Of a stretch of 64,000 bases of DNA, positions 45,615-64,000 are shown in pieces. The position numbers were made by a program, and so were the translations under genes. The notes under the pieces were generated by a model. That model saw only the letters and a program-made list of their open reading frames with translations. It had not been told where the DNA came from and made no database searches. Positions within the stretch are counted from its first letter, which is position 1; each line of letters opens with the position of its first letter. Source of the stretch: Sphingomonas parva (ex Maeng et al. 2020) (GTDB taxonomy: Bacteria > Pseudomonadota > Alphaproteobacteria > Sphingomonadales > Sphingomonadaceae); the NCBI RefSeq assembly GCF_004564275.1, contig NZ_SPDV01000007.1, forward strand, positions 1 to 64,000, in the 5' to 3' direction.

Positions 45615-48131
45615 CTATTCGTAGCGCAGGGCGTGGATTGGGTTGGCGCGGGCGACCTTCAGAGCGTGGCTGGCGATCGTGCCGAGGGCGATCACCAGGG
45701 CCAGCATCCCCGCCAGCAGGAACGGCGTCGGCCCGAGCGCGATCCGGCTGTCGAAGCCGTTCAGCCAATCGCGCATCACCCACCAGGCGACCGGCCAGGC
45801 GATGAGGTTCGCAACGATCACCGGTTTCGAGAATTGCCAGGCGAGAAGGCGGACGATGTCCCGCGAGCGGGCGCCGAGCACCTTGCGGATGCCGATCTCC
45901 TTCGTCCGGCGCTCGGCCGTGAAGGCGGCGAGGCCGAACAGGCCGAGGCAGCCGATCACCACCGCGAGGATCGCGAAGGCGCCGAACAATTGTCCGCGCG
46001 CCTCCTCACGCTCGTAAAGCTCGCGCAGGCGATCGTCGACGAACTCTGCATTGAACGGGACATCGGGGACCAGCCGCTTCCAGATGGTCTCGATGTCGGT
46101 CAGCACCTTCTTCGGCTGGTTGCCGACGTAGCGGACCATCAGCGCATTGTGGAAGTTGCGGGCGTAATAGAACATGATCGGCTGCAGCGGATCCCGGACC
46201 GAGCGGAAGCGCGCGTCCTTCACCACCCCGACGATCGTGGTCGGAACCATGCCGAACTCGGGATAGGTGAGGCCCGAGTTGACCTGCTTTCCGATCGCTT
46301 CCTGCGGCGTGTAGCCGAGCCGCTCGACCGCGCTGCGGCTCATCACCACGTTGATGCCGCGCTTGACGATCGCGCGCTCCGCATCCGGATTGACCGGGAA
46401 CGGAGTGGTCGCATCGTCCATGGCCACCGCCACATCGAAGTTGCGTCCGGCGAGGAGCTCCATCCCCATGGTCGAGAAGAAGTCCGGATCGACGCCGTAG
46501 GTGCCAAGGTCGATCGACTTGGGGTTGCCCGGCAGATAGACGCTGGTCACGGAATTGTTGCCCGGATTGACGCCGATGCCGGTGCGGGCGACGGCCTGGA
46601 CGCCATCGACCTTGCCGATCTCGCGCTTCAGCGTCTCCATGATCGGCTCGATCTCGCGCGCGCCGACGTTCTGGATCTGGAGCAGGCCCTCGCGCTTGTA
46701 GCCGGCGTCGGCGGTGCGGGCGTAGAGCGTCTGCGCATAGATCACGCCGGTGCAGATGATCAGGCCGATCGACACTGCGAATTGCGAGACGACGAGGATG
46801 TTGCGCAGGCTGCCGGTGCCCTGCGCCTCGGCGGCCGACTTGTTCGCCTTCAGCACTCGCGCCGGCTGGAAACGCGACAGATAGAAGGCCGGGTAGAGCC
46901 CGCCGACTCCGCCGACGATCAGCACCAGCAGCACGATCGGCAGGAGGAGGCCGCCGCTGCCCACATAGGTGACCGCGATGTCCGCATCGAGGAAGTTGTT
47001 GAACACGGGCAGGGCCAGCTCGACCATCGCCAGCGCGAGCAGCATCGCGATCGCCACGACCAGGACGGATTCGCCGAGGAACTGAACGATCAGCTGCTTG
47101 CGGTTGGCGCCGAGCACCTTGCGCAAGGCGACCTCGCGGGCCCGCTGCGAGGCACGGGCGGTGGCGAGATTGGTGAAGTTGACCACGGCCATGCCGAGGA
47201 TGAGCAGGGCGATGACCGAGAAGGTGACGATCGTCCGCCGATCGTTCCCCGGGGTCATCGAGGCACGCTGCCCTTCGCCCATGTGGATGTCGCGAACGTT
47301 GACGAGACGCCAATCCTGGGTTTCGCCGGGGTTCGTCACTTCGCCGCCGGCCGCGGCACCCTGGGTGTCGTCGGGGATGTTGCGCTTCTCCCAGGCGGGG
47401 AGCTGGCGGTTGATCTCCGCGACGTCCGCGCCGGGGCGGAGCTTCGCATAGACCCAGCCGCCCTGACTGTTCCAGCTCGACAGGAAATACGGATTGTCGG
47501 CGAAGAAGGTCTTCGGGTCGAAGCGGGCGACCACGCCGAGATCGAGATGGCTGTTCTTCGGCAGGTCCTTGATGACGCCGGTGACCTTGTAGTCCCAGCT
47601 CTTGCCCTGCGCCATCAGGGTCAGGGTCTTGCCCATCGGATCGGCCGAGCCGAAGCGCTTGGTCGCTTCCTCCTCGGTCAGCACGAGCGAGCTCGTGTCG
47701 GCGAGGGCGGTCTTCGGATCGCCCTTGACGAACGGCAGCTGGAGGATCTCGAATATGTTGCCGTCGACGAAGTTGAACCGGTCGGCGAAGCTCGCCTTGC
47801 CGTCCTGCTTGATGACGGCGCCGCAGGAGCAGACGTAGACCGCCTTCTCGACCTGCGGGAAGTCCTTCAGCAGGGCGTCGCGCGAGACGAACTCCGTCAT
47901 CTGGAGCTTCATCTCCTCACCGCCGCTTTCGGACGGCTTGTACCAGGCCTGGAACTGATAGGCCCGGTCGGCCTCCGGCATCCAGCTGTCGTAGCTCATC
48001 TCGTACCGGACGTAGAGCAGGATCAGCAGGCACGCGGCGAGGCCGAGCGCGAGGCCGAAGATGTTGATGAAAGCGTAGGTCTTGTTCTTGGCGAGCGCCC
48101 TGAGACCAACGGTGACGTAGTTCCTCCACAT
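45615..48131 (-). CDS. MacB/FtsX-type ABC transporter permease, copy 4
   Basis: 838 residues. The N terminus MWRNYVTVGLRALAKNKTYA opens an FtsX-type protein with one helix, a large periplasmic MacB-like domain, a first trio of helices (IVTFSVIALLILGMAVVNFT), a second periplasmic domain (about 460-680) and a final trio. The end TAERRTKEIGIRKVLGARSRDI and ANPIHALRYE is the FtsX signature. Having two MacB_PCD-FtsX halves makes each copy a complete permease. It is the last of four paralogues, starting ten bases after the stop of copy 3. Periplasmic Cys residues (VCSCGA) are particular to this copy. Confidence 0.9.
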   Translation of the reverse strand: MWRNYVTVGLRALAKNKTYAFINIFGLALGLAACLLILLYVRYEMSYDSWMPEADRAYQFQAWYKPSESGGEEMKLQMTEFVSRDALLKDFPQVEKAVYVCSCGAVIKQDGKASFADRFNFVDGNIFEILQLPFVKGDPKTALADTSSLVLTEEEATKRFGSADPMGKTLTLMAQGKSWDYKVTGVIKDLPKNSHLDLGVVARFDPKTFFADNPYFLSSWNSQGGWVYAKLRPGADVAEINRQLPAWEKRNIPDDTQGAAAGGEVTNPGETQDWRLVNVRDIHMGEGQRASMTPGNDRRTIVTFSVIALLILGMAVVNFTNLATARASQRAREVALRKVLGANRKQLIVQFLGESVLVVAIAMLLALAMVELALPVFNNFLDADIAVTYVGSGGLLLPIVLLVLIVGGVGGLYPAFYLSRFQPARVLKANKSAAEAQGTGSLRNILVVSQFAVSIGLIICTGVIYAQTLYARTADAGYKREGLLQIQNVGAREIEPIMETLKREIGKVDGVQAVARTGIGVNPGNNSVTSVYLPGNPKSIDLGTYGVDPDFFSTMGMELLAGRNFDVAVAMDDATTPFPVNPDAERAIVKRGINVVMSRSAVERLGYTPQEAIGKQVNSGLTYPEFGMVPTTIVGVVKDARFRSVRDPLQPIMFYYARNFHNALMVRYVGNQPKKVLTDIETIWKRLVPDVPFNAEFVDDRLRELYEREEARGQLFGAFAILAVVIGCLGLFGLAAFTAERRTKEIGIRKVLGARSRDIVRLLAWQFSKPVIVANLIAWPVAWWVMRDWLNGFDSRIALGPTPFLLAGMLALVIALGTIASHALKVARANPIHALRYE

Positions 48132-48141: not shown

Positions 48142-50622
48142 CTACTCGTATCTGAGAGCGTGGATGGGATTGAGACGCGCAACACGTAGAGCGTGGCCGG
48201 CTACGGTGGCGATCGCGATGGCCAGCGCCATCGCTGCGGCGACGACGAACGGACCCGGCGTCAGCGCGATGCGGACGTCGAAGCCGTTCAGCCAGTCCCG
48301 CATCGCCCACCAGGCGACCGGCCAAGCGACGAGATTGGCGAGCACGACCGGCTTGGAGAATTGCCAGGCGAGCAGCCGCACGATGTGGCGGACCTTGGCG
48401 CCCAGCACCTTGCGGATGCCGATCTCCTTGGTCCGCCGCTCCGTGGCGAAGGCGGCGAGGGCGTAGAGGCCGAGGCAGGCGATCACCACGGCGAGCGCGG
48501 AGAAGGCGGCGAACAGCGCGCCCCGTGCGCGATCGGCGGCATAGACTTCCGCCACGATCTCCTCGGCGAAGCGGCCCTGGAAGGGAATCTCCGGCTCGAA
48601 CTTGCGCCAGACGCGGTTGAGCCCGGCCATGACGTCGCTGGGCCTCGCGCCGGCATAGCGAACGACGACCATGTAGGTCCGATCGGGATCGTAGCCGTAG
48701 ATCAGCGGCTCGATCGCGTCGCGCGCGGTGCGGATGCGGGTGTCCTCGACGACCCCGACGATCGTCGAGGGGACGAGATCGCCGCCGTCGATGCCGACGC
48801 GGATCGTCTTACCGATCGCCGCCTGCGGCGTCGCATGGCCGAGGAGCGTCGCGGCGTGGCGGTTCACCACCACGTTGACGCCGCGGGTCGCGAGCCCCGG
48901 ATCGGTGTCACCTTCCTCGGATCGCACGATACGGTCTCCGGCGTACCGGTCGCCGAGCATCCGGCCGGCGAGGAGCCGCGCCTCGATCGTCTGCAGGAAA
49001 TCGGCGTCGATGCCGTAGAAGCCGATCGAGAGCCCTTCCGGCGCCCCCGGCGCTCGAACGGCGAGGATCGTCTTGTTGGTCGCGGCGACGCCGATGCTGG
49101 TGCGGCCGACCCCGACGACGCCGGGCACCTTGAGCAGCTCGCGATGCGCCGCTTCATATTCGTTGCTGTCGCCCGCGAGGCGCCAGGCGGAATCGATCTG
49201 GATGAGACCGTCGCGCCGATAGCCGGGATCGACCGTCTCGACGTGCCGGGTCTGCGAATAGATGACCGACGTGCAGACGATGAGGCCGATCGCAATGGCG
49301 AACTGGACGAGGACGAGCGCGGTGCGCACCCTTCCGCTGCCGGGAGTCTCCGCGCCCGAGCGGTTGGCGCGCAGCACCTGCGCCGGCCGGAAGCGGCTGA
49401 GGAACAGGGCCGGATAGAGCCCGCCGAGCAGCCCCGCCGCGAGCATCAGCGCGGCGGCCGGCAGCAGCACGCCGCCACGCCCGAAATAGCCGACCTCGAG
49501 ATCGGCGCCGATACGCCCGCCGATCCACGGCGCCGCCAGCTCGACCACGCTGAGGGCCAGCAGCATCGCCGCCGCGGCCATGGCCACAGCCTCGCCCAGG
49601 AGCTGAACGACGATCTGCCGGCGGCGCGCGCCGAGCACCTTGCGCAAGGCGATTTCGCGGGCGCGCTGGGTGGCGCGGGCGGTGGTGAGATTGACGAAAT
49701 TGATCACCGCCATGCCGAGGGTCAGCAGGGCGACGACAAGGAAGGTGGCGAGCGCACGCGGATCGCCGCCGGGCGAGAGAGCCCCGGCCTGGGCAGGACC
49801 GAGATGGACGTCGGCGATCGGCACCAGTGCGAGATCGAGAATGTCGGCCTGCGACGAGGATCTCCCGTCGATCACCTGCGGCGCGATCGTGCGCTTCTCC
49901 CAGGCGGGGAGCGCCGCGTTGATCGCGGCGGCGTCGGCACCGGGGCGCAGCTTCACATAATGCTGCTGGTTCATATTGCCCCAGCCGGCATATTCGGGTG
50001 GGGGCGCCTGGGCGGGATCCCGGCGGAAGATGACGGCGAGGCTGAGGCTGGAATTCTTCGGCAGATCCTCGAGCACGCCGCTCACCGCATAATCGCGTTT
50101 CCCCTCCCCCGCGCCGAGGCTCATCGTCCGGCCGAGAACGTCGGCGGTGCCGAACTGGCGGACGGCCTCCTCCCGGGTGAGCACGATCGAGTTGGTGTTG
50201 GGCAGCGCCCGCGCCGCGCTGCCGTGAAGGAACGGGAGCTGAAAGACGTCGAAGAAGCTCGCATCGACCGTTGCCGCATCGAGGAAAATCGCCTGGCCGT
50301 CGCGCATCGTCACGGTCCGGCCGCTGTCGAGCACGGTCAGCGCCTCGATCTGCGGAAAGCCGCCGGGAAAGCTCTCCCGGACCGGATAGGGGCTGGACTG
50401 TGAGCGCGTGACGGGCTGGCCCGGTTCATGCCAGGTCGACTGGACCTGATAGATGCGGCCGCTGTCCGGCAGCCAGCCGTCGTAGGAGGATTCGTAGCGG
50501 ACGTAGAGGAGGATCAGCAGGCAGGCAGCGAAGCCGAGCGCGAGCCCGCCGATGTTGATCGCCGCATAGCTCTTGCTCTTGCCGAGAGCCCGGAAACCGA
50601 CGGTGACATAGTTTCTCCACAT
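48142..50622 (-). CDS. MacB/FtsX-type ABC transporter permease, copy 3
   Basis: 826 residues, same layout as its neighbours: MWRNYVTVGFRALGKSKSYA, AINIGGLALGFAACLLILLY, two periplasmic domains, ATQRAREIALRKVLGARRRQI in the middle and ATERRTKEIGIRKVLGAKVRH, quoted in part, before ARLNPIHALRYE at the end. The start lies nine bases after the stop of copy 2. The middle and C-terminal FtsX blocks are nearly the same in all four copies, while the periplasmic domains differ most, as expected if each recognises a different partner or substrate. Confidence 0.9.
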   Translation of the reverse strand: MWRNYVTVGFRALGKSKSYAAINIGGLALGFAACLLILLYVRYESSYDGWLPDSGRIYQVQSTWHEPGQPVTRSQSSPYPVRESFPGGFPQIEALTVLDSGRTVTMRDGQAIFLDAATVDASFFDVFQLPFLHGSAARALPNTNSIVLTREEAVRQFGTADVLGRTMSLGAGEGKRDYAVSGVLEDLPKNSSLSLAVIFRRDPAQAPPPEYAGWGNMNQQHYVKLRPGADAAAINAALPAWEKRTIAPQVIDGRSSSQADILDLALVPIADVHLGPAQAGALSPGGDPRALATFLVVALLTLGMAVINFVNLTTARATQRAREIALRKVLGARRRQIVVQLLGEAVAMAAAAMLLALSVVELAAPWIGGRIGADLEVGYFGRGGVLLPAAALMLAAGLLGGLYPALFLSRFRPAQVLRANRSGAETPGSGRVRTALVLVQFAIAIGLIVCTSVIYSQTRHVETVDPGYRRDGLIQIDSAWRLAGDSNEYEAAHRELLKVPGVVGVGRTSIGVAATNKTILAVRAPGAPEGLSIGFYGIDADFLQTIEARLLAGRMLGDRYAGDRIVRSEEGDTDPGLATRGVNVVVNRHAATLLGHATPQAAIGKTIRVGIDGGDLVPSTIVGVVEDTRIRTARDAIEPLIYGYDPDRTYMVVVRYAGARPSDVMAGLNRVWRKFEPEIPFQGRFAEEIVAEVYAADRARGALFAAFSALAVVIACLGLYALAAFATERRTKEIGIRKVLGAKVRHIVRLLAWQFSKPVVLANLVAWPVAWWAMRDWLNGFDVRIALTPGPFVVAAAMALAIAIATVAGHALRVARLNPIHALRYE

Positions 50623-50631: not shown

Positions 50632-53133
50632 CTATTCGTACCTGAGGGCGTTGATCGGGTTCGACCGCGCGACGCGGAAGGCGTGGCCGGCAATCGTGCC
50701 GAGCGCGATCGCGAGGGCGGCGCCGCCTGCGAGAAGGAAGGGCGTCGGCCCGAGATCGATCCGGCTGTCGAAATGGTTGAGCCAGTCGCGCATCACCCAC
50801 CAGGCCGCGGGCCAGGCAATCAGATTGGCGACGATCACCGGCTTGGAGAATTGCCAGGCGAGCAGTCGGACGATGTCGTGGGTACGGGCGCCGAGCACCT
50901 TGCGGATGCCGATCTCCTTGGTGCGCCGCTCGGCAGTGAAGGCGGCGAGCCCGAACAGGCCCAGGCACGCGACGATCACCGCCAGCAGTGCGAAGCCGGC
51001 GAAGCTCGCCGCCCGCGCCTGCTCCGCCTGGTAGAGTTCGGCGACGATCTCCTCGCTGAACTGGGCGTCGAACGGCACGTCGGGCGCCAGGCGCTTCCAC
51101 ACCGCCTCCACGCGATCGCGCACCGCGGCGGGATCATGCGAATCGTAGCGGACGACCAGGGCGTTGAAGCCGCGCTCGGAGAGGCGGAAGACGAGCGGCT
51201 CGATCGGTTCGCGGATGGAGCGAAGGCGGCTGTCCTTGACGACGCCGACCACGGTCATCGGGACGAGCCCGGCCTCCTCGGCCGCAATCGAGATGCCGAA
51301 CTGCGCGCCGATCGCATCGGCGGGCGTGCGATAGCCGAGGCGCCGTGCCGCGAGCTCGTTCACCACCACGTTGACGCCGCGGGCGACCAGCGCGCGATCG
51401 TCTTCGAGCGTGGGCTGCCAGGGCCGCGGATCGACGTCCAGCTGCCGACCGTGATCGAGGCCGCGGCCAGCGACGATCTTCATTCCCATCGTCCGGAAGA
51501 AGCCGTCGTCGATCGTATAGCTGCCGAGGTTGATAGGCTCCTGGCGCCCCGGAATGCGTGCGCCGTTGTTGTTCTGGCTGCGGGTGGCGATTCCGATCGC
51601 GGTCCGGCCGACGCCGGTGACGCCCTCCAGCCGCGCGACCTCGCGCGCCAGCGTCTCGCTGCCTCCGGGCACGGGGCGCGCGCCGATATCGACCTGGAGC
51701 AGACCCTGGCGCGCATAGCCGGGATCCGCGGTGCGCGCATGGACGGTCTGCCCATAGACCACCGCCGTGCAGATGATCAGGGCGATCGAGACGGCGAACT
51801 GGCCGACGACGAGCACGCTGCGCAGCCGGCCCGAGCCCTCGGCCTCCGCGGTCGACTTGTTGGCCTTGAGGACCTGCGCCGGCTGGAAGCGCGAGAGATA
51901 GAAGGCCGGATAGACGCCGCCGGCCGCCCCCACGAGCAGGACCAGCAGCAGGATCGGGAGCAGCATTCCGTCGGCGCCGAAATAACGCATGGTCAGATCG
52001 GCATCGAGGAAGTGGGCGAGCAGGGGCAGCAGCAGCTCGACCAGGGTCAGCGAGAGCAGCATCGCGAGTCCGGCGACGAGCACCGATTCGGCGATGAACT
52101 GGCTGATCAGCTGGCGGCGGGTGGCGCCGAGCACCTTGCGAAGCGCCACCTCGCGTGCGCGCTGGCTGGCGCGTGCCGTAGCGAGGTTGGTGAAGTTCAC
52201 GCAGGCCATGGCCAGGATCAGCACGGCGACCACCGCGAAGGTGGCGATGCTGCGGTGATCGTTTCCGGCCGTCATCGCCCCGCCCTGCGCGCGGCCGAGA
52301 TGGACGTCTCGGACCGGCACCAGATCCCAGTCGCCGACATCGCCCTGGTTGACGGTGCGATCGCCGAACCTCTGGTCGGGAATGTTGCGCTTCTCCCATT
52401 GCGGCAGCGCGGCGCGGATCGCATCGACATCGGCGCCGTCGCGCAGCACCACATAGTTCCAGCCTCCCATCGTGCCCCACTGGCTGAGGAAGCCGGGGTT
52501 GGTCGCGAAGGCCGTCTGGGGATCGAACCGCGCGACGAGCGTGAACCGCAAATGCGAGTTGCGGGGCAGATCGCGCATGATGCCGGTGACGCGATGATCG
52601 GCCTTGTCGCTGCCGTTGACGAGGGTGAGCGTGCGGCCGATCGGGTCTTCCGCCCCGAACAACCTGCGCGCCTCGCTCTCGCTCAGCACGACCGATCCGA
52701 CGTTGCGCAGCGCCGTCTTCGGATCGCCCTTGACCAGCGGCAGCGGCAGAACGTCGAAGAAGAGGTTGTCGACCTGGATCGCATCCTCGATCGGGATCGC
52801 CTGTCCGCCGCGAAGCACCACGGGGGAAGCCCCGAGCGCGTAGACCTGGCGCGCGATCTGCGGGAAATCCTTCGTCAGCGTCCTGCCGGTGACGTAGGGC
52901 GACATCTGCAGATCGTCCCGCTCGCCCGTGTCCGGATCGCGGAACGTGGTCTGCACCTGGTAGACCTGCTCCGCATTGGGCAGCCACGCATCGTAACTGC
53001 GCTCGTAGCGCACAGAGAGAAGGATCATCAGGCAGGCGGCCATGCCGATGGCCAGACCGATGATGTTGATGAACGCGTAGGTCCTGTTCTTCGACAGGGC
53101 GCGAACACCGACCGTGAGATAGTTACGCCACAT
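50632..53133 (-). CDS. MacB/FtsX-type ABC transporter permease, copy 2
   Basis: 833 residues from the ATG at 53133; the frame runs further upstream into copy 1 but that is out of its phase. It opens MWRNYLTVGVRALSKNRTYA and ends ARSNPINALRYE. The FtsX blocks SQRAREVALRKVLGATRRQL and TAERRTKEIGIRKVLGARTH are conserved. The start is 14 bases after the stop of copy 1. It should work with the ATPase encoded upstream in the operon, taking mechanical force to the periplasm as MacB does, or helping lipoprotein or peptide release. Confidence 0.9.
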   Translation of the reverse strand: MWRNYLTVGVRALSKNRTYAFINIIGLAIGMAACLMILLSVRYERSYDAWLPNAEQVYQVQTTFRDPDTGERDDLQMSPYVTGRTLTKDFPQIARQVYALGASPVVLRGGQAIPIEDAIQVDNLFFDVLPLPLVKGDPKTALRNVGSVVLSESEARRLFGAEDPIGRTLTLVNGSDKADHRVTGIMRDLPRNSHLRFTLVARFDPQTAFATNPGFLSQWGTMGGWNYVVLRDGADVDAIRAALPQWEKRNIPDQRFGDRTVNQGDVGDWDLVPVRDVHLGRAQGGAMTAGNDHRSIATFAVVAVLILAMACVNFTNLATARASQRAREVALRKVLGATRRQLISQFIAESVLVAGLAMLLSLTLVELLLPLLAHFLDADLTMRYFGADGMLLPILLLVLLVGAAGGVYPAFYLSRFQPAQVLKANKSTAEAEGSGRLRSVLVVGQFAVSIALIICTAVVYGQTVHARTADPGYARQGLLQVDIGARPVPGGSETLAREVARLEGVTGVGRTAIGIATRSQNNNGARIPGRQEPINLGSYTIDDGFFRTMGMKIVAGRGLDHGRQLDVDPRPWQPTLEDDRALVARGVNVVVNELAARRLGYRTPADAIGAQFGISIAAEEAGLVPMTVVGVVKDSRLRSIREPIEPLVFRLSERGFNALVVRYDSHDPAAVRDRVEAVWKRLAPDVPFDAQFSEEIVAELYQAEQARAASFAGFALLAVIVACLGLFGLAAFTAERRTKEIGIRKVLGARTHDIVRLLAWQFSKPVIVANLIAWPAAWWVMRDWLNHFDSRIDLGPTPFLLAGGAALAIALGTIAGHAFRVARSNPINALRYE

Positions 53134-53147: not shown

Positions 53148-55634
53148 CTATTCGTAGCGAAGGGCATGGATGGGGTTCAGCCGGGCGACGCGGATCGCAT
53201 GGCCGGAGACGGTGCCGAGCGCGATCGCGAGCGCGATCAGACCGGCGAGAAGAAAAGGCCCGGGACCGAGCGGAATGCGCGCGTCGAATCCGTTCAGCCA
53301 GTCGCGCATCGCCCACCAGGCAATCGGCCAGGCGACGATGTTGGCGAGCATCACCGGCTTGGAGAATTGCCAGGCGAGCAGCCGCACGATGTCGCGCACC
53401 CGGGCGCCGAACACCTTGCGGATGCCGATCTCCTTGGTGCGCCGTTCGGCGGTGAAGGCGGCGAGCCCGAACAGGCCGAGGCAGGCGATCAGCGCTGCGA
53501 ACAAGGCGAAGCCGCCGAAGGCCTGAGCCCGCGCCTCGTCGGCGCCGTAGAGCGCGGCGAGCTCTTCCTCGGCGAAGCCGGCATCGAACGGCAGGGTGGG
53601 CAGGAGGCGGCGCCAGATTCCCTCGATCGCATTCCGCACGGCGGCGGGATCGGCTCGCTCGAAGCGCACGGCGATGTAGCGGTAGACCCCGTTATCGTAG
53701 TAGATCGCGGGCGCGACCGGATCGCGGACCGAGCGGAAACGCGCGTCCCTGACGACGCCGACGATGGTCGCGGTGGCGTTGCCATAGTCCTCGCCGAAGA
53801 TCGGAATACCGATGTGCTTGCCGACCGCGGCAGCGGGTGCGCCGAAGCCGAGCTGGCGCGCCGCGCTCTCGTTGACGACGACGTTGAGGCCGCGGGCGAC
53901 GATCGCGCGCGCTGCGGCTTCGGCCGCATTCTCGTCCAGTTTCTGGTCGATGGCGATGCTGTCGGCGGCATGCGTGCGCGACAGGATGCGTCCGGCGACC
54001 CGATCGATCTTCATCGTGTCGAAGAAGGCCGGATCGACGCTGTACCAGCCGAGCTCGACCGGCGCCGAGCGGCCGGGCACCACGACGCTGTTGAAGAAGG
54101 TCGGACCCTCGGCGGGAACCAGCCGCGTCGCCGACGCCGCGGTGACGCCGGGCACCTTGGCGATCTCGCGCAGCAACGTCTCCTGCACCGCCTGCGCCTC
54201 CGGATTGCGCAGGCCGCGGACGGTGAGCAGGCCGTCGCGCTGGTAGCCGGGATCGACCGTGCGGGCGAAGACCGTCTGGTGATAGACGATCGCCGTGCAG
54301 GCGATCAGGCCGATAGAGACGGCGAACTGGCCGATCACCAGCAGGTTGCGTAGGCGCGCGCTCCCCGGCGCGTCGGTCGACGACTTGTTCGCCTTGAGCA
54401 CCGCGCCGGGCTGGTAGCGGGAAAGCTGGAAGGCGGGGTAGAGGCCCCCCAGCAGGCCGACGAGCAGGGTGAAGCCGACGATCGGAAGCAGCAGGCCGCT
54501 GCCGCCGAGATAGGCGAGATCGAGATCGGCATCGAGGAAGCGGGAGAAGGCCGGCAGGGTGATCTCGACCAGCGCCAGCGCGATGGTCATGGCGATCGCC
54601 ACGACGAGCAGGGATTCGCCGAGGAACTGGCCGACGAGCTGGCGCCGCTTGGCGCCGAGCACCTTGCGCACCGCCACCTCGCGAGCGCGCTGACCGGCCC
54701 GGGCCGTGGCGAGATTGACGAAGTTGATCACCGCCATGCTGAGGATCAACAGAGCGACGATGGTGAAGGTCACGATGGTGCGCATGTCATTGCCGGGACG
54801 ATCGCCGCCCTGGGCGGGTCCGAGGTGGATGTCGCGAACGTTGGTCAGACGCCAGTCGGTGGTGGCGGCGATGTCGCGGCCGCCGATGTCGCGTGCCGGC
54901 ACATTGCTCTTCTCCCAGGCCGGCATGCGGGCGTTGATGCTCGCCGCGTCGGCGCCGGGCTTCAGCTTCGCGTACGCCATGCCGTTGACACAGCCCCAGG
55001 GGCAATCCTCCTCCTCGGCCGAGTTGAAGCGGCGCACCATGGTGAGGTCGAGATGGGTGTTGCGGGGAAGATCCTCGAACACGCCGGTGACGCGCAGATC
55101 GAACTTCTCGCCGCCTCGCGCGGTGGTGAGCGTCCGGCCGACGACATCGGTCGTGCCGAACAGCCGCATCGCCTCGGCGCGGCTGAGGGCGACGCTGTCG
55201 GTGTCGCGAAGCGCGCCCCGCCGGTCGCCGGCGATGAACGGCAATTGGATGATGTCGAAGAAGCTGGCATCGGCCGCCGCCGATTTCTCGACGCCGATCG
55301 CGTTGCCGCCCTGGAGCACGACCGCCGGATCGGTCTCGAGCTTGGCGATCGATTCGATCTCGGCGAAATCGCCGGCCAGCGCGTCTCCGATCGGGCGGGT
55401 GACCGCCTGCATCGCGATGTTCTGGCCGGTTTCCGGATCGGTTCCGAACGTCTGGATCTGGTAGACGCGGTCCGCTTCCGGCAGCCAGGCGTCATAGCTG
55501 GTCTCGTAGCGCACGTAGAGGAGCAGGATGAGGCAGGCGGCGAGGCCGATCGCCAGGCCGACGATGTTGATCGCCGCATAGGTGCGGTTCTTGGTCAGCG
55601 CCCGATAGCCGACGGTCAGGTAATTGCGCCACAT
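53148..55634 (-). CDS. MacB/FtsX-type ABC transporter permease, copy 1
   Basis: 828 residues from the ATG at 55634. It opens MWRNYLTVGYRALTKNRTYA and AINIVGLAIGLAACLILLLY, with a central TARAGQRAREVAVRKVLGAK and terminal TAERRTKEIGIRKVFGARV before ARLNPIHALRYE. It is the first permease of the four and follows the DUF2807 gene after 112 bases with no terminator-like hairpin, so it remains in the same operon. The periplasmic domain has a Cys pair (EEEDCPWGCVNG) not seen in the other copies. Confidence 0.9.
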   Translation of the reverse strand: MWRNYLTVGYRALTKNRTYAAINIVGLAIGLAACLILLLYVRYETSYDAWLPEADRVYQIQTFGTDPETGQNIAMQAVTRPIGDALAGDFAEIESIAKLETDPAVVLQGGNAIGVEKSAAADASFFDIIQLPFIAGDRRGALRDTDSVALSRAEAMRLFGTTDVVGRTLTTARGGEKFDLRVTGVFEDLPRNTHLDLTMVRRFNSAEEEDCPWGCVNGMAYAKLKPGADAASINARMPAWEKSNVPARDIGGRDIAATTDWRLTNVRDIHLGPAQGGDRPGNDMRTIVTFTIVALLILSMAVINFVNLATARAGQRAREVAVRKVLGAKRRQLVGQFLGESLLVVAIAMTIALALVEITLPAFSRFLDADLDLAYLGGSGLLLPIVGFTLLVGLLGGLYPAFQLSRYQPGAVLKANKSSTDAPGSARLRNLLVIGQFAVSIGLIACTAIVYHQTVFARTVDPGYQRDGLLTVRGLRNPEAQAVQETLLREIAKVPGVTAASATRLVPAEGPTFFNSVVVPGRSAPVELGWYSVDPAFFDTMKIDRVAGRILSRTHAADSIAIDQKLDENAAEAAARAIVARGLNVVVNESAARQLGFGAPAAAVGKHIGIPIFGEDYGNATATIVGVVRDARFRSVRDPVAPAIYYDNGVYRYIAVRFERADPAAVRNAIEGIWRRLLPTLPFDAGFAEEELAALYGADEARAQAFGGFALFAALIACLGLFGLAAFTAERRTKEIGIRKVFGARVRDIVRLLAWQFSKPVMLANIVAWPIAWWAMRDWLNGFDARIPLGPGPFLLAGLIALAIALGTVSGHAIRVARLNPIHALRYE

Positions 55635-55746
55635 CTCGACCATTCCCCTTCGTCCTTGCCCCACAGGCCTCCCCCTGCCGCTCGCGCGGTTCCCCGCCGC
55701 GGCGCCAAAGGGATGAGCAAGGCAGCCGCGGCGAGGATGGGTAAGC

Positions 55747-56304
55747 TCAATCGGCGCGCGTCACTTCGCCGCCGCCGTCGACGACGACCGTCTTGTGCGG
55801 ATCGCCCCGGTAGACGACGTTGCCGCCGCCCTTGATCGCCGCCGCCAGCGACTGCTGCGGGTTCGTCCTGATCACGCCGCCGCCCTTGATCGAGGCGGCG
55901 ACCGCCTGTGTCCGCATCGCATCGGCGTCGATCACGCCGCCGCCGGTGATGCTGGCGGCGAGCGCCTTGCGGGCCGGGAACGCGCCTTCCGCGACGATCG
56001 AGCCGCCGCCGGTGATGGCGAGCGCGTGGACGTCGGGAGTCACGATCTCGACGACCAGATCATAGTCGCGGCACGTTCTGGTGCAGGCGCGGATCTCAAG
56101 GCCGCCATTGCGGACGGTGAAGCGGCTCGTCTCGAGGTTCCCGCGCAGCAAGGTGACTTTCTGCGCCGCGCCGTGACGGATGCGCACCTCGCCGCCGCCG
56201 GTCAGCGCGACGGCGTCGAACCTGGCGACCGGTACGACCGTTTCGGCCGAGGCGGGCACTGCGACGGACAGGAACAGCAGGGCTGCGGCGGGCCGGATGC
56301 GCAT
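55747..56304 (-). CDS. DUF2807 (GIN-type) secreted beta-helix protein
   Basis: 185 residues. The signal peptide AAALLFLSVAVPASAE is followed by a repetitive domain: FDAVALTGGGEVRIRHG, LAITGGGSIVAEG, SITGGGVIDADA, SIKGGGVIRTN, AIKGGGNVVYRG, VVDGGGEVTRAD. The repeated GGG turns are typical of DUF2807, a small beta-helix. It lies between the ABC ATPase and the four permeases, 21 bases after the ATPase stop region, suggesting a periplasmic partner of the transporter. Its function is unknown. Confidence 0.8.
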   Translation of the reverse strand: MRIRPAAALLFLSVAVPASAETVVPVARFDAVALTGGGEVRIRHGAAQKVTLLRGNLETSRFTVRNGGLEIRACTRTCRDYDLVVEIVTPDVHALAITGGGSIVAEGAFPARKALAASITGGGVIDADAMRTQAVAASIKGGGVIRTNPQQSLAAAIKGGGNVVYRGDPHKTVVVDGGGEVTRAD

Positions 56305-56325: not shown

Positions 56326-57006
56326 TCAGGCCGCGCGGCGCCGCTCGATCAGGATCTTCCCGTCGAGCATGTTGACGACGCGGCCGGCGTAATCGGCGTG
56401 CGACGGCGAATGGGTGACCATGACGATGGTCGAGCCCTCGCGGTTGAGCTGCTGCAGCATCTTCATGACCTCCTCGCCATGCTGGGTGTCGAGGTTGCCG
56501 GTCGGCTCGTCGGCGAGGATCAGCTTGGGGTTGCCGACCAACGCGCGGGCGACGGCGACGCGCTGCTGCTGGCCGCCCGAGAGCTGGCTCGGCCGGTGCC
56601 GTGCGCGGTGGGCGATGCCGACCTTGTCCATCACTTCCTCGACGCGGCGGCGGCGCTCGGCCGAGGCGACGTCGTGATAGAGAAGGGCGAGCTCGATGTT
56701 CTCGCGCACCGAGAGCTCGTCGACCAGATTGAAGCTCTGGAAGATGAAGCCGATGTTCTGCTTGCGGACGTCGGCGAGCTTCGCCTCCGGGAGGCCGGCA
56801 ACCTCCTGGCCGTCGAACACGTAGGAGCCGCTGGACGGGCTATCGAGCATGCCGACGATGTTCAGCAGGGTCGATTTGCCGCAGCCCGAGGGGCCCATGA
56901 TCGCGACGAACTCGCCGTCTGCGATCTCGAGGTTGATCGAATCGAGCGCCGTCGTCTCGACGGTGTCGGTGCGGTAGACCCGCGACAGTTCCCGCATGGT
57001 CAGCAT
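56326..57006 (-). CDS. ABC transporter ATPase, MacB/LolD type
   Basis: 226 residues. Walker [15 protein letters not shown]-loop region [19 protein letters not shown], signature [17 protein letters not shown], Walker [17 protein letters not shown], and H-loop [12 protein letters not shown]. This is the MacB/LolD/FtsE branch that drives FtsX-type permeases. It is likely shared by all four permeases, as no other ATPase is in the operon. It begins 17 bases after the adaptor gene stop. Confidence 0.93.
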
Positions 57007-57023: not shown

Positions 57024-58334
57024 TTAGCTGTCGAGGTCCAGCCGATCGCGATCGGCGAAACCGGTGTAGGGCGAGGTGATGACGCGTTCTCCGGCGTCCA
57101 GGCCTTCGAGCACCTCGATGTAATCGGCATTGCGGCGGCCGAGGCGGACGTTGCGCTTGACCGCGCTGCCGCCGCCCGGGGCGACCACAAACACCCAGGC
57201 GCCGCCGGTCTCGTTGTAGAAGGCGCCGTTGGGGATCAGCAGGGCGGGCGTCGGATCGCCGAGCGTCAGTCGCACCTGCAGCGTCTGTCCGCGCTGCAGC
57301 TCCGGCGGCTCCTGACCGATGAAGTGAAGGTCAACCTCGAACGCGCCGTTGCGCACCTGCGGGTAGATCTTGGCGACCTTCGCCCTGTAGCTCTTGCCGC
57401 CGGTATCGACCGTCGCTGTCTGCCCCGCCTCGACCCGGCCGAGATAGAATTCGTCGACGCTGGCGACGAGCTTGTTGCGGCCGGCGCTGTCGATCTGGCC
57501 TAGGCGCTCGCCGCGGTTGAGCGACTGGCCGACCTGGATCGAGAAAGCGGTTAGCTGGCCGGAGACCGGCGCGCGCAGATTGAGCGCGTCGAGCGTGGCA
57601 CGGGCGATATCGAGGCTGCCGCTCAACGAGGCGTTGGAGGCGCGCAGCTGGGCGAGCTGGCTGCCCTGCAGCCGCTGGTTGATGCCCTGCGCCCGGCGCA
57701 GCGCGTCGACCCGACGCTGGTTCGAGACATATTCGTCGCGGCTGTCCTGGAAGGTCTTGGCCGGGATGAAGCCTTTCTCCATCAGCGGCTTCTGCAGCTC
57801 GTACTGCCGGCGCGCCTTGTCGGCGGCGAGCTGCGCCTCGATGACCGCGCGTTCGTCCTGGATCTGGGTCTGGGCGAGCGCGAGCTCCTGGCTGCGCATC
57901 GAGTTGACCTCGCGAGACACGTCCGACTGGCGGGCGAGCAGGTTCAGCTGAAGATCGGAATTGGAGAGGACGGCGAGCAGCTGGCCCTGCTGGACCATGG
58001 CGCCGTCCTCGACCAGCACCTTCTCGACCCGGCCGCCTTCGACCGCGTCGAGATAGACGGTGAGCAGCGGCGTCACGCGGGCGCGGAGCGGCAGGAAGTC
58101 GTCGAAGCGGCCCTTCTCAACGGTCGAGACGGTCAGTCTGTCCGAGGCGACGTTCTGCGTGTTGGCGCTCGGGGCGAAGACGTAGAAGAGGATCGCCGCG
58201 AGCAGCACGGCAGCGGCTGCGATCGCGATCTTAGCGTTCTTCGGCAGGCCCTTGCGGACCACCACTTTGTCCATCGCACCCCCGGTCGGAGGACCGGCTG
58301 GCTTGTCGGTCGACTGCATCGATACCACGCTCAT
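57024..58334 (-). CDS. HlyD/MacA-type periplasmic adaptor protein
   Basis: 436 residues from the ATG at 58334 (GAGG seven bases upstream). One N-terminal membrane helix (AIAAAAVLLAAILFYVFAP) is followed by barrel-sandwich and lipoyl parts: VTPLLTVYLDAVEGGRVEKVLVEDGAMVQQGQLL is the first half, seen in pieces here, and LNLRAPVSGQLTAFSIQVGQSL the second, with a long coiled coil between (about 120-260). The C-terminal beta-barrel contains GRVEAGQTATVDTGGKSYRAKV. It should link the ABC transporter to the periplasm or an outer-membrane channel, as MacA does. First gene after a strong sigma-54 promoter match. Confidence 0.9.
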   Translation of the reverse strand: MSVVSMQSTDKPAGPPTGGAMDKVVVRKGLPKNAKIAIAAAAVLLAAILFYVFAPSANTQNVASDRLTVSTVEKGRFDDFLPLRARVTPLLTVYLDAVEGGRVEKVLVEDGAMVQQGQLLAVLSNSDLQLNLLARQSDVSREVNSMRSQELALAQTQIQDERAVIEAQLAADKARRQYELQKPLMEKGFIPAKTFQDSRDEYVSNQRRVDALRRAQGINQRLQGSQLAQLRASNASLSGSLDIARATLDALNLRAPVSGQLTAFSIQVGQSLNRGERLGQIDSAGRNKLVASVDEFYLGRVEAGQTATVDTGGKSYRAKVAKIYPQVRNGAFEVDLHFIGQEPPELQRGQTLQVRLTLGDPTPALLIPNGAFYNETGGAWVFVVAPGGGSAVKRNVRLGRRNADYIEVLEGLDAGERVITSPYTGFADRDRLDLDS

Positions 58335-58357
58335 CTTCACCTCACGCTCCCGGCGCA

Positions 58358-58372
58358 GCAATCATCGTGCCA
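58358..58372 (-). promoter_or_regulatory. Sigma-54 promoter P2 for the adaptor/ABC operon
   Basis: On the minus strand TTTGGCACGATGATTGCTG matches the sigma-54 consensus YTGGCACGRNNNTTGCW at every fixed position. The -24 GG and -12 GC are correctly spaced. Transcription would start near 58347, about 13 bases before the adaptor ATG and just upstream of its ribosome binding site. Confidence 0.88.
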
Positions 58373-58420
58373 AAAGCCGACACCCGCCGGCGCGAGCCGC
58401 AGAATGGCGCCGGCGCCCTT

Positions 58421-58461
58421 CTCTGTCCGGAAACGGACAGAGACTGTACGGCGCCGGACAG
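58421..58461. promoter_or_regulatory. Tandem dyads, likely enhancer sites of the NtrC-type regulator
   Basis: Site 1: CTGTCCG (58423-58429), GAAA, CGGACAG (58434-58440), extended by CT/AG to nine-base perfect arms. Site 2: CTGTACG (58444-58450), GCGC, CGGACAG (58455-58461). Their centres are 21 bases apart, two helical turns. They lie about 75-115 bases upstream of the P2 start site, the normal position of enhancers for NtrC-family activators, which bind such dyads through a Fis-type HTH. Confidence 0.78.
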
Positions 58462-58469
58462 GCTGCAGC

Positions 58470-58652
58470 TCACAGGCTGCTCGTCTCACAGAGCAGGGAC
58501 ACGCTGGCGGCGTCGTTCGCGCAGGCGGCGGTCGCCGCCTGGGCGAGGCGGTCTTGAGCGTGGAGCTCCACCGGCTCGAGAGCGGCGAACATCATCGTCA
58601 CCGAAATCGCCATCCACACGGCGCTCCCCAAGATGGTCTCGAACTTCTGCAT
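58470..58652 (-). CDS. 60-residue membrane or secreted micro-protein
   Basis: 60 residues. MQKFETILGSAVWMAISVTM is followed by MFAALEPVELHAQ, so there is one membrane helix or an uncleaved signal, then a helical part with two Cys residues (AACANDAA, LLCETSS). AGGGAG lies eight bases before the ATG, and a good sigma-54 -24 element is further upstream. It lies between the divergent regulator and the transporter operon. No family is recognised; position and signals suggest a small component or sensor of the transporter system. Confidence 0.6.
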   Translation of the reverse strand: MQKFETILGSAVWMAISVTMMFAALEPVELHAQDRLAQAATAACANDAASVSLLCETSSL

Positions 58653-58697
58653 TGTCAGTCTCCCTGAAAGACCAATCCCCTGTCGAAGGGAGACGGA

Positions 58698-58712
58698 GCA
58701 GGAGGCGTGCCA
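58698..58712 (-). promoter_or_regulatory. Sigma-54 promoter P3 for the 60-residue ORF
   Basis: On the minus strand TTGGCACGCCTCCTGCT matches the consensus YTGGCACGRNNNTTGCW at the whole -24 box and at the -12 GC, with C for T at one position. The predicted start near 58687 is about 35 bases before the ATG of the micro-protein. Confidence 0.7.
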
Positions 58713-58827
58713 AGCGGCAGAAATGGCGGATTTCCGCCGTTCCCGCAGACGATGCGAGTGACCGATTGTTCGTTATCGCACAGAAATGACCGCCCGCGGA
58801 CGCTTCGTGTTCGCCGACGGACGCAAG

Positions 58828-58844
58828 TGGCACGATTATTGTTT
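58828..58844 (+). promoter_or_regulatory. Sigma-54 promoter P1 for the regulator/kinase operon
   Basis: TGGCACGATTATTGTTT matches the sigma-54 consensus except T for C in the -12 GC. The predicted start near 58853 is about 25 bases before the GTG of the response regulator gene. It implies that the regulator may activate its own expression. A weaker dyad TTGTCCG-ATTT-CGTTCAG overlaps it at 58843-58860. Confidence 0.7.
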
Positions 58845-58877
58845 GTCCGATTTCGTTCAGAGGATAGGAGTCGGAAC

Positions 58878-60278
58878 GTGGTACGGGAGGGGAAGCCATT
58901 CGCGCGGTGCGTCGTGATCGACGACGATCCGGACATCCTGTTGTCCGCACGGCTGCTGCTGCGCGATCTTTTCCATGAGGTCGCGACCTTTCAGAGTCCA
59001 GAAGAGGCGTTGCCCTCGATCGACGGCGAGGGCGCCGACGCGATCCTGCTCGACGCCAATTTCGGCCGCGGCGCGACCAATGCGGCGGAAGGGTTCCACT
59101 GGCTGGGCGAGATCCTGAAGAAGGACCCCCAGGCGGTGGTGGTGATGATCACCGCCCATGGGGGCGTGAACATTGCCGTGGAGGCGATGAAGCGGGGCGC
59201 GACGGACTTCGTCTCCAAACCCTGGGCGAACGAGCGGCTGCTCGCCACCGTTCGGACGGCGGCGTCGCTGCGCAGCTCCCGGCAGGCCGTCGCGCGGGAG
59301 CGCAAGCGTGCCGTCGCCATCGCCGCGCCTGCCGCCGGGGCGGAGACCCCTTTGCTCGGCCACAGCGGCGCGATGCGCCGCGTCTTCTCGTTGATCGAGC
59401 GGGCCGGCCCGACCGAGGCGAACGTGCTGATCCTCGGCGAGAATGGCACCGGCAAGGAGCTCGTCGCGCGCGAGCTCCATCGCCGCTCGCGCCGCGCCGA
59501 CAATGTCATGGTCTCGGTCGATCTCGGCGCGGTGGCCGAGAACCTGTTCGAATCCGAGCTGTTCGGCCATGTGAAGGGCGCCTTCACCGACGCCCGCGGC
59601 GACCGGGTGGGCCGGCTGCAGGCAGCGGACGGCGGCACCTTGTTCCTGGACGAAGTCGGCAACCTGCCGCTTCACCTCCAGCCCAAGCTGCTGACCGCGC
59701 TCGAGCAGCGCCAGGTGGTGCCGGTCGGCGCCAACCGGCCGGTGCCGATCGACGTCAGGGTCATCGCTGCGACCAACCTGCCGCCGGAGCGGCTGGCCGA
59801 CGAGGGCCTGTTCAGGCCCGACCTGCTGTTCCGCCTGAACACGGTCGAGATCGAGCTGCCGCCGCTTCGCGAGCGCCGCGAGGACGTACCGGCGCTGATC
59901 GAGCATTATGTCGCGCTGTTCTCCAGGAAGTACGGCAAGCCGGTGCGGTTGCTTCCGCCCGACGTGATGGCGGCGCTCCAGGCCTATGACTGGCCGGGCA
60001 ACGTCCGCGCGCTCCGCCACGCCGCCGAACGGGCGGTGATCCTGGCCGCCGACGAGGTCTTCACGGTCGAGGATTTCTCGCTTTCCCGCTCGCCGGCGCC
60101 GCGCGCCGCGGTCGCCGCGCCGCCAGCGCTCGGCGCCGACCTCAACCTAGAGCGCGCCGAAAAGCAGATGGTCGAGCAGGCGCTGAAGAAGCACGCCTAC
60201 AACATCTCGCTCGCCGCCGCCGAGCTCGGCCTCACCCGCGCCTCGCTCTATCGCCGCATGGACAAGCATGGGCTGTAG
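58878..60278 (+). CDS. NtrC-family sigma-54-dependent response regulator
   Basis: 466 residues from the GTG at 58878 (AGGAG eight bases upstream). Receiver domain with Asp15/Asp16, phosphorylation site Asp59 in AILLDANFG and Lys114 in VSKPW. AAA+ domain with Walker A GENGTGKE (187-194), the sigma-54 contact loop GAFTDA (234-239, where GAFTGA is usual), and Walker B GGTLFLDE (252-259). C-terminal Fis-type HTH: NISLAAAELGLTRASLYRRM. The three sigma-54 promoter matches and phased dyads next to it mark its likely targets: itself, the micro-protein and the ABC transporter operon. Its kinase gene follows. Confidence 0.92.
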   Translation: MVREGKPFARCVVIDDDPDILLSARLLLRDLFHEVATFQSPEEALPSIDGEGADAILLDANFGRGATNAAEGFHWLGEILKKDPQAVVVMITAHGGVNIAVEAMKRGATDFVSKPWANERLLATVRTAASLRSSRQAVARERKRAVAIAAPAAGAETPLLGHSGAMRRVFSLIERAGPTEANVLILGENGTGKELVARELHRRSRRADNVMVSVDLGAVAENLFESELFGHVKGAFTDARGDRVGRLQAADGGTLFLDEVGNLPLHLQPKLLTALEQRQVVPVGANRPVPIDVRVIAATNLPPERLADEGLFRPDLLFRLNTVEIELPPLRERREDVPALIEHYVALFSRKYGKPVRLLPPDVMAALQAYDWPGNVRALRHAAERAVILAADEVFTVEDFSLSRSPAPRAAVAAPPALGADLNLERAEKQMVEQALKKHAYNISLAAAELGLTRASLYRRMDKHGL

Positions 60279-60355: not shown

Positions 60356-61696
60356 ATGGCGTTTAAGGCGCGCTTCCTCGCCGGGCTGGCATGGCGGGCC
60401 CTGCTCTTGCTCGCCACGGCCTTCGCCTTCGTGGCGACGATTGCCATGCCCGGATTCGGCGCGGCGCGGCTGCTCGCCGGCGGGCTTTGCGCCTGGGCAT
60501 TGTGGGCGTTGTGGCGCTACATCCAGCGCACCAACCTGGAGCTCGCCCGCTACCTCGAGGCCGTGCGCCTCGGCGACCTTTCGCAGAGCTTTTCCCAGCG
60601 CACCGGCGGCAGCGGCTTCACCGAGGTCGGCGAGGCACTCGAACAGGGTATCCGGCGGCTGCGGGAGGAGAGGCACCGCCATTGGGACGCCAGCCGCTTC
60701 TACGAGGCGGTGCTCGACGATGCCCCCACCGCCCTGCTCACCGTCGATTCCGAAGGCCGGATCGAGCTGGCCAACAAGGCCGCCCGCCGCTTGTTCATCC
60801 GGCACCACGGAGTCCGGCTCGAGGATTTCGCCGCTTATGGCGAGACCTTTGCCCAAGCCCTGATCGACGACGCGATCGGCCGCCCGCGGCTGGTACCGCT
60901 GATGCTCGACGCGATGCCGCAGACCGCGATGCTCAGCGCCGCTCTGGTCCACCGTCTGGGCGGCACCGTACGAGTCATCGCCGTCCAGCCGATCCAGGGG
61001 GAGCTCAACGCCGTCGAGATCGCCGCCCAGTCGGACCTCGTGCGGGTGCTCACCCATGAGATCATGAACTCGATCACCCCCGTGACCTCTCTGGCCCGGA
61101 CGGCCGCCGATCTGATCGCCGAGATCGATACAGGGAGCGATCCCGCGATTTCCGACGCGCGCGCCGCGGTCGAGACGCTGGCGCGCCGGGCCGACGGCGT
61201 GATGCACTTCGTGGAGAGCTACCGGCAGATCAGCCGCACTCCGGAAGTGCGCCGCAGGCTGTTCGCCGCGGCGCCCTGGGCGCGGGAGCTGGAGGCCCTG
61301 TTCCGCGCCGGCGACGTCTCGCAAGGCGTTCGCCTCAGCCTCTCGGTCTCGCCGGAGACGCTCAGCATCGACGTCGATCCGGACCTGATGTGCCAGGTGC
61401 TGATCAACCTGCTGCGCAACGCCGCCGAAGCCGCGCGCGGCCACAGCGACAGCCCGCACGTCGACCTTTCCTTCTCGCTCATCCCGGGCGGGCGGGTGCA
61501 GATCGAAGTCGGCGACAATGGACCGGGTGTCCCCGACAGCCTGGCGCAGGACGTCTTCCTGCCCTTCTTCACCACCAAGGCGAAAGGCACCGGCGTGGGG
61601 CTGAGCCTGGCGCGTCAGGTGGTGCTCGCCCACCGCGGATCGATCGGGCTCGATACCAGCCCGAGCGGCGGGGCGCTGTTCCGGATCATCGTCTGA
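60356..61696 (+). CDS. Membrane histidine kinase of the NtrC-type pair
   Basis: 446 residues. Two N-terminal helices (RALLLLATAFAFVATIAM, RLLAGGLCAWALWALW) with almost no periplasmic loop, then a linker and a PAS-like domain (FYEAVLDDAPTALLTVDSEG). Kinase core: H-box VLTHEIMNSITPVTSLAR, N-box QVLINLLRNAAEAA, GDNGPGVPD and TGVGLSLARQVVLAH. The short loop suggests it senses a signal in the membrane or cytoplasm, such as envelope damage. It lies 77 bases after the response regulator, across a short GC-rich palindromic repeat (60303-60331). Confidence 0.9.
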   Translation: MAFKARFLAGLAWRALLLLATAFAFVATIAMPGFGAARLLAGGLCAWALWALWRYIQRTNLELARYLEAVRLGDLSQSFSQRTGGSGFTEVGEALEQGIRRLREERHRHWDASRFYEAVLDDAPTALLTVDSEGRIELANKAARRLFIRHHGVRLEDFAAYGETFAQALIDDAIGRPRLVPLMLDAMPQTAMLSAALVHRLGGTVRVIAVQPIQGELNAVEIAAQSDLVRVLTHEIMNSITPVTSLARTAADLIAEIDTGSDPAISDARAAVETLARRADGVMHFVESYRQISRTPEVRRRLFAAAPWARELEALFRAGDVSQGVRLSLSVSPETLSIDVDPDLMCQVLINLLRNAAEAARGHSDSPHVDLSFSLIPGGRVQIEVGDNGPGVPDSLAQDVFLPFFTTKAKGTGVGLSLARQVVLAHRGSIGLDTSPSGGALFRIIV

Positions 61697-63578: not shown

Positions 63579-63579
63579 G

Positions 63580-64000
63580 TCAGGCCGCCTTCGGTCGGGT
63601 GATCTGCTTGAGCACGTCGTCGCGCGGTCCGTCCGCCGCCACCCGGCCCTTCTCGATCAGGATGATGCGGCTGACCAGCTGCAGCAGCGGCGGACGGTGC
63701 GTGATCAGCAGCGTCGTCCGCCCGGCGAGCTCGGTCTCGAGGCGCTGGATCAGCGCCGTCTCGGTCTGGGCGTCCATGGCGCTCGACGGCTCGTCGAAGA
63801 CGACGATCGACGGGCGGCCGGCGAGGGCGCGGGCGATGGCGATCGACTGGCGCTGGCCGCCGGACAGCCCCTCGCCGCGATCGGCGAGGCGCAGATCGTA
63901 GCCGTTGGCGATCTGCCCCATGAAGCTGTGGGTGCCGGAGAGCTCCGAGGCGCGGAGCATCTCGGCATCATCGACGCCTTCACGGCCGAGCACGATGTTC
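63580..64000 (-). CDS. Type I secretion ABC transporter, C-terminal part (cut by window edge)
   Basis: The last 139 or so residues of an ABC exporter of the LapB/PrtD type; the gene continues past 64000. The end of the ATPase domain is visible: signature EGLSGGQRQSIAIARALAG, Walker B SIVVFDEPSSAMDAQTE, and H-loop LLITHRPPLLQLVSRIIL. The stop codon is one base before the ATG region of the HlyD-like gene, so the two are in one operon. Membrane helices and any N-terminal peptidase-like domain lie outside the window. Confidence 0.9.
   Translation of the reverse strand, partial: NIVLGREGVDDAEMLRASELSGTHSFMGQIANGYDLRLADRGEGLSGGQRQSIAIARALAGRPSIVVFDEPSSAMDAQTETALIQRLETELAGRTTLLITHRPPLLQLVSRIILIEKGRVAADGPRDDVLKQITRPKAA

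Follow-up and report, generated by a model that had tools for sequence, protein, structure and literature searches.

In the Bce-type modules of Firmicutes, a kinase with a short hairpin in the membrane and without a large sensor domain stands beside permeases of the MacB superfamily, and these modules use an OmpR-type regulator and sigma-70. The locus described here shares with them the short-hairpin kinase beside MacB-superfamily permeases but has an NtrC-type regulator, sigma-54, an adaptor protein and probably TolC. It also resembles the MacAB-TolC and Dar exporters, in that its adaptor and ATPase match the DarC, DarD and MacB models (all below curated cut-offs), but it differs from them in having four permeases, a DUF2807 protein and an ATPase separate from the permeases. 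Sigma-54 promoters were assigned to FtsX-type (COG0577) permeases of the antimicrobial-peptide type in 2025, in what the passages concerned present as first evidence (PMC12316311). Those cases were found with promoter matrices in Gammaproteobacteria, Opitutia and Bacteroidia, whereas the present locus belongs to Sphingomonadales, and the same passages mention no alphaproteobacterial case, regulator operator or divergent kinase unit. Among the open-licence PMC papers that we searched, we found none that recognisably describes this unit in Sphingomonadales.

The features of the locus are collected in Table 1, with positions numbered along the window, by which we mean the whole stretch of 64,000 nucleotides that was analysed.

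Table 1. Regulatory elements and genes at the locus, with positions in the window; dyads are scored out of 12.
Feature	Position	Strand	Remarks
P2, sigma-54 -24/-12 element	58357..58373	-	-12 G at 58359; faces exporter operon
P3, sigma-54 element	58697..58712	-	faces small ORF and exporter operon
P1, sigma-54-like element, -12 altered (TTGTT)	58828..58843	+	faces regulator gene
Dyad 1, CTGTCCG-N4-CGGACAG	58423..58440	.	12/12; presumed P2 enhancer
Dyad 2, CTGTACG-N4-CGGACAG	58444..58461	.	12/12; 21 bp from dyad 1, start to start
Dyad 3	58766..58783	.	11/12; centre ~75 bp upstream of P3 -12 G
Dyad 4	58843..58860	.	10/12, weak alone; starts 2 bp past P1 -12 G
NtrC-type response regulator	58878..60278	+	receiver, sigma-54 AAA+ (GAFTDA loop), Fis HTH; start read as GTG
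Histidine kinase	60356..61696	+	hydrophobic hairpin at N-terminus; PAS, HATPase; lacks a large periplasmic sensor domain
Small ORF, 60 aa	58470..58652	-	hydrophobic N-terminus; no family
Periplasmic adaptor (MFP)	57024..58334	-	best NCBIfam match DarC, below cut-off
ABC ATPase	56326..57006	-	closest NCBIfam model DarD (below cut-off), then MacB
DUF2807 (head GIN domain) protein	55747..56304	-	
Permease 1	53148..55643	-	FtsX + MacB_PCD; ADOP-like, below cut-off
Permease 2	50632..53133	-	FtsX + MacB_PCD
Permease 3	48142..50622	-	FtsX + MacB_PCD
Permease 4	45615..48131	-	FtsX + MacB_PCD

The domain matches bear out the proposal of the initial annotation that an NtrC-family regulator lies with a kinase beside the dyads. 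All three regulator domains (receiver, Sigma54_activat AAA+ and Fis HTH) score above their curated cut-offs, the L1 loop reads GAFTDA, a GAFTGA-type variant as in sigma-54 activators, and the putative target promoters are of the -24/-12 type with dyads upstream, as for NtrC-type activators. In the part that concerns this loop, a study of Desulfovibrio counts GAFTDA among the variants expected to work (PMC4641369). The GAFTDA-loop response regulator VfmH of Dickeya, which we compare by its loop and not by gene context, is described in the section concerned as not recovering sigma-54 in a pull-down (PMC10714721). Matches to PrsR/PrsK of the PEP-CTERM system (335 of 503 bits for TIGR02915 and 59 of 300 for TIGR02916) and to the NtrC, NtrX and AtoC equivalogs (329 of 559, 302 of 600 and 305 of 714 bits) all stayed under the NCBIfam cut-offs. 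The genome that holds the window has one rpoN and six strong matches to the sigma-54 activator AAA+ domain, the regulator at the locus among them.

Hydropathy gives the kinase two transmembrane segments with a very short loop and no periplasmic domain, the arrangement of intramembrane-sensing kinases, although in the window kinase one segment (15-31) is above the threshold and the second was read by eye. By the same measure, 15 of 18 kinase relatives have two hydrophobic segments separated by 2-14 residues, and the frames of the three relatives lacking the hairpin are probably cut. Because of this membrane hairpin and the lack of a large periplasmic sensor, we infer by analogy with Bce modules that the kinase may read the state of the membrane or of the transporter. 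Beyond it, at 61706-62182 and 62274-64000, an Rrf2 regulator and a type I secretion adaptor adjoin the kinase, and an ABC-type frame leaves the window.

On the exporter side, the models for the darobactin exporter DarBCD stayed below their equivalog cut-offs (DarC 173 of 450, DarD 282 of 375 and DarB 37 of 700 bits). The small ORF matched no Pfam or NCBIfam family, UrcA (TIGR04433) included, and a protein search of 149 genomes of the family recovered its own copy alone, so that we rejected it as a conserved protein. A terminator-like hairpin lies ahead of it at 58675-58694 on the minus strand, in the presumed P3 leader. Elsewhere in the window, the first 12,000 nucleotides (1-12000) have a GC content of 58-62%, against 65-73% in the remainder.

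We re-derived the positions of the sigma-54 elements and dyads. The three elements and the dyad pair that the initial annotation had placed here were correct to within one base, its full match for P2 held (TTGGCACGATGATTGCT, with no mismatch to the pattern YTGGCACGRNNNTTGCW), and P3 (TGGCACGCCTCCTGCT) and P1 (TGGCACGATTATTGTT) each depart from TGGCACG-N4-TTGCW at one -12 base, as it had said. P3 reads CTGCT instead of TTGCT, and P1 reads TTGTT, without the -12 C. Against the longer pattern of that annotation both have two mismatches, so a search with it that allows one mismatch returns P2 only. In the whole genome (4.49 Mb), allowing up to one mismatch gives 21 sites for TGGCACG-N4-TTGCW, three of them exact, and 31 for the reversed pattern. 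The sigma-54 motif alone is therefore not enriched, and single sites mean little. Three of the 21 sites nevertheless fall inside 488 bp, for which the Poisson expectation is about 2e-5 per genome.

The dyads are nearly confined to the locus. The pair 21 bases apart that had been claimed is real, both members being perfect, but two further dyads (3 and the weaker 4) accompany it. Measured from the P2 -12 G, the centres of dyads 1 and 2 lie ~73 and ~94 bp upstream, and the distance from dyad 3 to P3 (~75 bp) resembles that from dyad 1 to P2 (~73 bp). The strict form CTGTNCG-N4-CGNACAG occurs twice in the genome, both times at the locus (control 0), and the 16-bp core TGTNCG-N4-CGNACA four times, three of them at the locus (control 2). 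A genome search of this kind had been envisaged in the initial annotation as a way to define the regulon. Within the window, all three instances scoring at least 11 are at the locus, but of the 13 scoring at least 10 nine are elsewhere, so dyad 4 is credible only through its conserved place. The one exact core away from the locus (C2:224030, L254) lies between frames that we read as hydrolase-like and acetyltransferase-like; none of the 21 sigma-54-like sites is near it and the reversed control gives hits as well, and it is probably a chance match. A looser dyad pattern matched 245 of 397 genomes of the family, but its reversed control also gave frequent hits, and the pattern was kept out of all counts as unspecific.

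Relatives of the locus were collected in two ways. Searching proteins with the regulator yielded 80 loci, including many where regulator and kinase genes diverge from neighbouring exporter genes; these range from Sphingomonadales to Bacteroidota, Acidobacteriota and Ignavibacteria. The adaptor, used as a query, matched 102 of the 396 genomes of the order. We compared 98 loci, namely the window, eight from the regulator search, 29 from the adaptor search and 60 further stretches; 13 of the 102 adaptor-positive genomes are outside this set. A divergent regulator adjoins the adaptor in 96 of the 98, the exceptions being L163, at a contig end, and L196, where a permease stands instead. Class A denotes the loci in which the regulator shares at least 50% identity with that of the window (78, counting the window itself), and class B the 18 loci with 32-41% identity.

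A sigma-54 motif on the exporter strand (at least 7 of 9 positions) is present in 78/78 class A loci (mean of 1.45 and maximum of 5 in 20 shuffled sets) and in 0/18 class B loci, counts that do not represent independent events because the loci are related and some are nearly identical. At the stricter threshold of at least 8 of 9, the motif is kept in 65 of the 78 (shuffled mean 0.25). Dyads scoring at least 10 of 12 are found in 76 of the 78 (shuffled mean 0.65), and successive dyads are most often 21 bp apart (41 cases, with 12 at 20 bp and 10 at 24 bp). The regulator loop is of the GAFTGA type in every class A locus (GAFTDA 58, GAFTGA 14, GSFTDA 5, GAFTNA 1); these Sphingomonadales counts come mostly from the adaptor search and, except for eight loci, are free of bias from a GAFTDA query. 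These results support the description in the initial annotation of sigma-54 promoters, dyads, regulator and kinase, small ORF and four-permease exporter as one unit, which is conserved.

In class B, the dyad is kept in 15 of the 18 loci, and one locus (L182) has a 7-of-9 sigma-54 site on the strand that faces the regulator. None of the 18 regulators has a GAFTGA-type loop: 17 are without the whole L1 loop and one is without the AAA+ domain, the regulator beside the exporter in L179/L219 consisting of a receiver and a Fis HTH with the AAA+ domain lost. On the adaptor tree, three class A loci (L010, L204 and L206) fall inside the class B transporter clade and carry loop and promoter together. 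Loop and promoter agree in 58 of 58 rows, and all three independent pairs on this tree are concordant (p 0.25), which falls short of significance because there are only three such pairs. Loss of rpoN was excluded as the cause of the loop-less regulators, since 393 of the 396 genomes of the order have the gene. Some relatives seem, judging from their sequences, to have lost the sigma-54 machinery from this switch. NtrC proteins without GAFTGA that work at sigma-70 promoters are described for Caulobacter and Rhodobacter in the passages concerned of PMC10274813. The 18 class B relatives are similar in having lost the sigma-54 loop, but the described cases belong to nitrogen control, whereas here the loss goes with the absence of a sigma-54 promoter from an exporter divergon.

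The promoter architecture differs among families. Each of the 40 class A loci belonging to other families has a single exporter-facing promoter and no P1, with dyads upstream in nearly all of them, and P3 sits where these families keep their single promoter. The motif WATCAR-N4-TTR, which we take to be the IHF consensus, occurs exactly in 18 of the 40, in each case at one of two fixed positions ahead of the promoter (11 loci at one, 7 at the other; shuffles 0.8), and in 1 of 38 loci of the own-family group. This group comprises 29 loci marked f1, the window and eight loci from the regulator search that we placed there ourselves. By our own reading, 28 of the 38 have a small ORF with a hydrophobic stretch behind P3 (no shuffled control; two doubtful 33-aa frames are left out), and in 22 of these 28 there is a start 37-57 nt past the P3 -12 G. 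UrcA scored above its cut-off in five of seven slot proteins tested, all five from relatives (L008, L010, L141, L164 and L166). The small-ORF slot is conserved; its protein is not.

A P2-like second exporter-facing site, at most 34 bp from the adaptor start, was found in just 11 of the 38 own-family-group loci, window included. Together with the P3 position kept in all families examined, this makes it a possibility of some substance, if not the reading we favour, that the exporter operon is read mainly from P3 through the small ORF, with P2 minor or vestigial. P2, however, is an exact site, and the best dyad pair lies at the canonical distance from it. We therefore prefer the reading that P2 and P3 would both serve the operon.

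P1 is present in 29 of the 78 class A loci (shuffled mean 1.4), all in the own-family group. Its -12 element is TTGAT in 22 of the 29 and TTGTT in three (window included), with the C kept in two. In 18 loci a dyad begins exactly 2 bp beyond the -12 G and in nine one begins at 23 bp, and in several loci a second dyad overlaps GGGAG, which is readable as a ribosome-binding site. In 24 of the 29, the regulator start, as extrapolated from the alignment, follows the P1 -12 G at 32-38 nt, so regulator bound at the dyad should cover the presumed start region of P1. The altered -12 element and the dyad 2 bp past the -12 G suggest autorepression at P1. P2 and P3 stand as annotated, but P1 is not the ordinary third sigma-54 promoter it was first taken for, its -12 C being replaced in 27 of 29 loci.

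Other readings of P1 fare less well. That it is no promoter, but a parking place for sigma-54 polymerase or a part of the regulator's operator, with the gene using another promoter, strikes us as rather unlikely: the altered -12 element and a motif that abuts the dyad at a fixed distance would fit, but the spacing to the regulator start in most loci would not, and a crude scan of 58300-58950 found no sigma-70-type site. We consider it improbable that P1 is a genuine activator-dependent sigma-54 promoter, giving the regulator positive feedback with dyad 3 as the enhancer. The element does combine a TGGCAC-like -24 with TTG at sigma-54 spacing, facing the regulator, far more often than in shuffled sequences, and dyad 3 lies ~67 bp upstream of its -12 G. 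However, a dyad like dyad 3 is found between P3 and P1 in few of the 29 loci, and the replaced -12 C (27/29) and the dyad at 2 bp (18/29) are better accommodated by repression than by activation. Destruction of the fork junction near -12, which keeps sigma-54 polymerase silent, allowed activator bypass in vitro in the experiments concerned (PMC4551910). From this we draw the speculative extension, to which we give little credence, that one set of dyads might activate sigma-54 polymerase at P3 and block, on the other strand, a P1 whose altered -12 element lets it leak without an activator, making the activator its own repressor. The idea that all these motifs are chance matches in GC-rich DNA can be practically dismissed: the sigma-54 motif alone is not enriched genome-wide (21 sites against 31 for the reversed control), but the sites are clustered, the dyads are nearly confined to the locus and the promoter is conserved in 78/78 class A loci versus 0/18 of class B.

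Among the 21 sigma-54-like sites of the genome, dyads scoring at least 10 lie within 250 bp of the three at the locus and of two others. An exact sigma-54 site at C8:16552 (G000; L225:1265-1516) has dyads scoring 11 and 10 and precedes a protein-isoaspartate-methyltransferase-like gene (pcm) followed by a TolC-family gene, although the methyltransferase-like and the partial TolC frames are both below NCBIfam cut-offs. The regulon is therefore probably not self-contained, contrary to what the initial annotation had held. The third exact sigma-54 site of the genome (C19:52745) has no dyad nearby. At C8:119375 (L234), a near-consensus sigma-54 site with a weak dyad lies ~120 bp from the AAA+ match of another activator (C8:119510).

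We surveyed 79 genomes with a methyltransferase-like gene for a sigma-54 site of at least 8 together with a dyad of at least 10 within 700 bp upstream. The combination occurs in 5 of 30 own-family genomes with a class A regulator and in none of the other 49 (0/15 class A of other families, 0/17 class B, 0/17 without an adaptor match). Within the own genus, both elements are present in G000 and G186 and absent from G053 and G129, which have no adaptor match. With 25 of the 30 own-family regulator genomes lacking the combination, the pcm-tolC promoter is not general. The arrangement also varies: the dyads lie 220-250 bp upstream of the sigma-54 site in the own genome (G000), with a tRNA-Cys between and their centres ~220-240 bp from the -12 G; in G081 and G186 the distance from the -12 G up to the dyad centres is 63-87 bp (compare 73 and 94 for P2); and in G392 (L300) and G494 (L267) they are downstream of the site, not upstream. 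The regulator probably raises pcm-tolC in trans in the own genome, G081 and G186, tolC after pcm being established in the own genome alone.

Outside the order, a divergent transporter gene lies within 1.5 kb in 51 of 72 distant loci. TGGCAY-N5-TTG points towards the transporter in 17 of these 51 (shuffles 0.1; N6 spacing 0, N4 spacing 5; other strand 1), and a dyad scoring at least 10 is found in 21 (shuffles 0.17). Given these counts against shuffles, a minority of loci in different phyla still show the promoter type and the operator core. GAFTDA is present in 72/72 of these distant relatives, a figure that is partly built in, as one search peptide contains GAFTDA. Six loci from four further families of the own phylum yielded a single weak sigma-54 site facing the transporter and a single dyad scoring 10 (L252), and the operator was otherwise unrecognisable in them.

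The motifs, their positions, their conservation and their co-variation are plain at the sequence level, and as a whole we think it quite likely that an NtrC-type regulator drives the exporter through sigma-54, limits its own gene and, in some genomes, probably acts on tolC in trans. From these patterns we infer the binding, the sigma-54 dependence, the signal, the substrate, the autorepression and the tolC activation. The kinase would sense the state of the membrane or transporter and phosphorylate the regulator, which would then bind the TGTNCG-N4-CGNACA dyads and remodel sigma-54 RNA polymerase at P2 and P3; these promoters would drive leftward transcription of the small ORF, whose product appears to be an envelope protein, and of the MacAB/Dar-like exporter operon. 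Regulator on dyad 4 would cover the presumed P1 start and so limit its own synthesis, and in some genomes the regulator may raise pcm-tolC, supplying the outer-membrane channel that completes the pump.

If so, a widespread family of putatively sigma-54-controlled envelope exporters would gain an operator and promoters, together with a likely signalling logic and tolC as a target in trans. The joint absence of the sigma-54 loop and the promoter from the same divergon in some relatives is a natural experiment, through which one may study, at one locus, how a sigma-54 regulator is converted into a regulator independent of sigma-54. The conserved P1 with its altered -12 element would likewise make natural activator-independent sigma-54 promoters testable.
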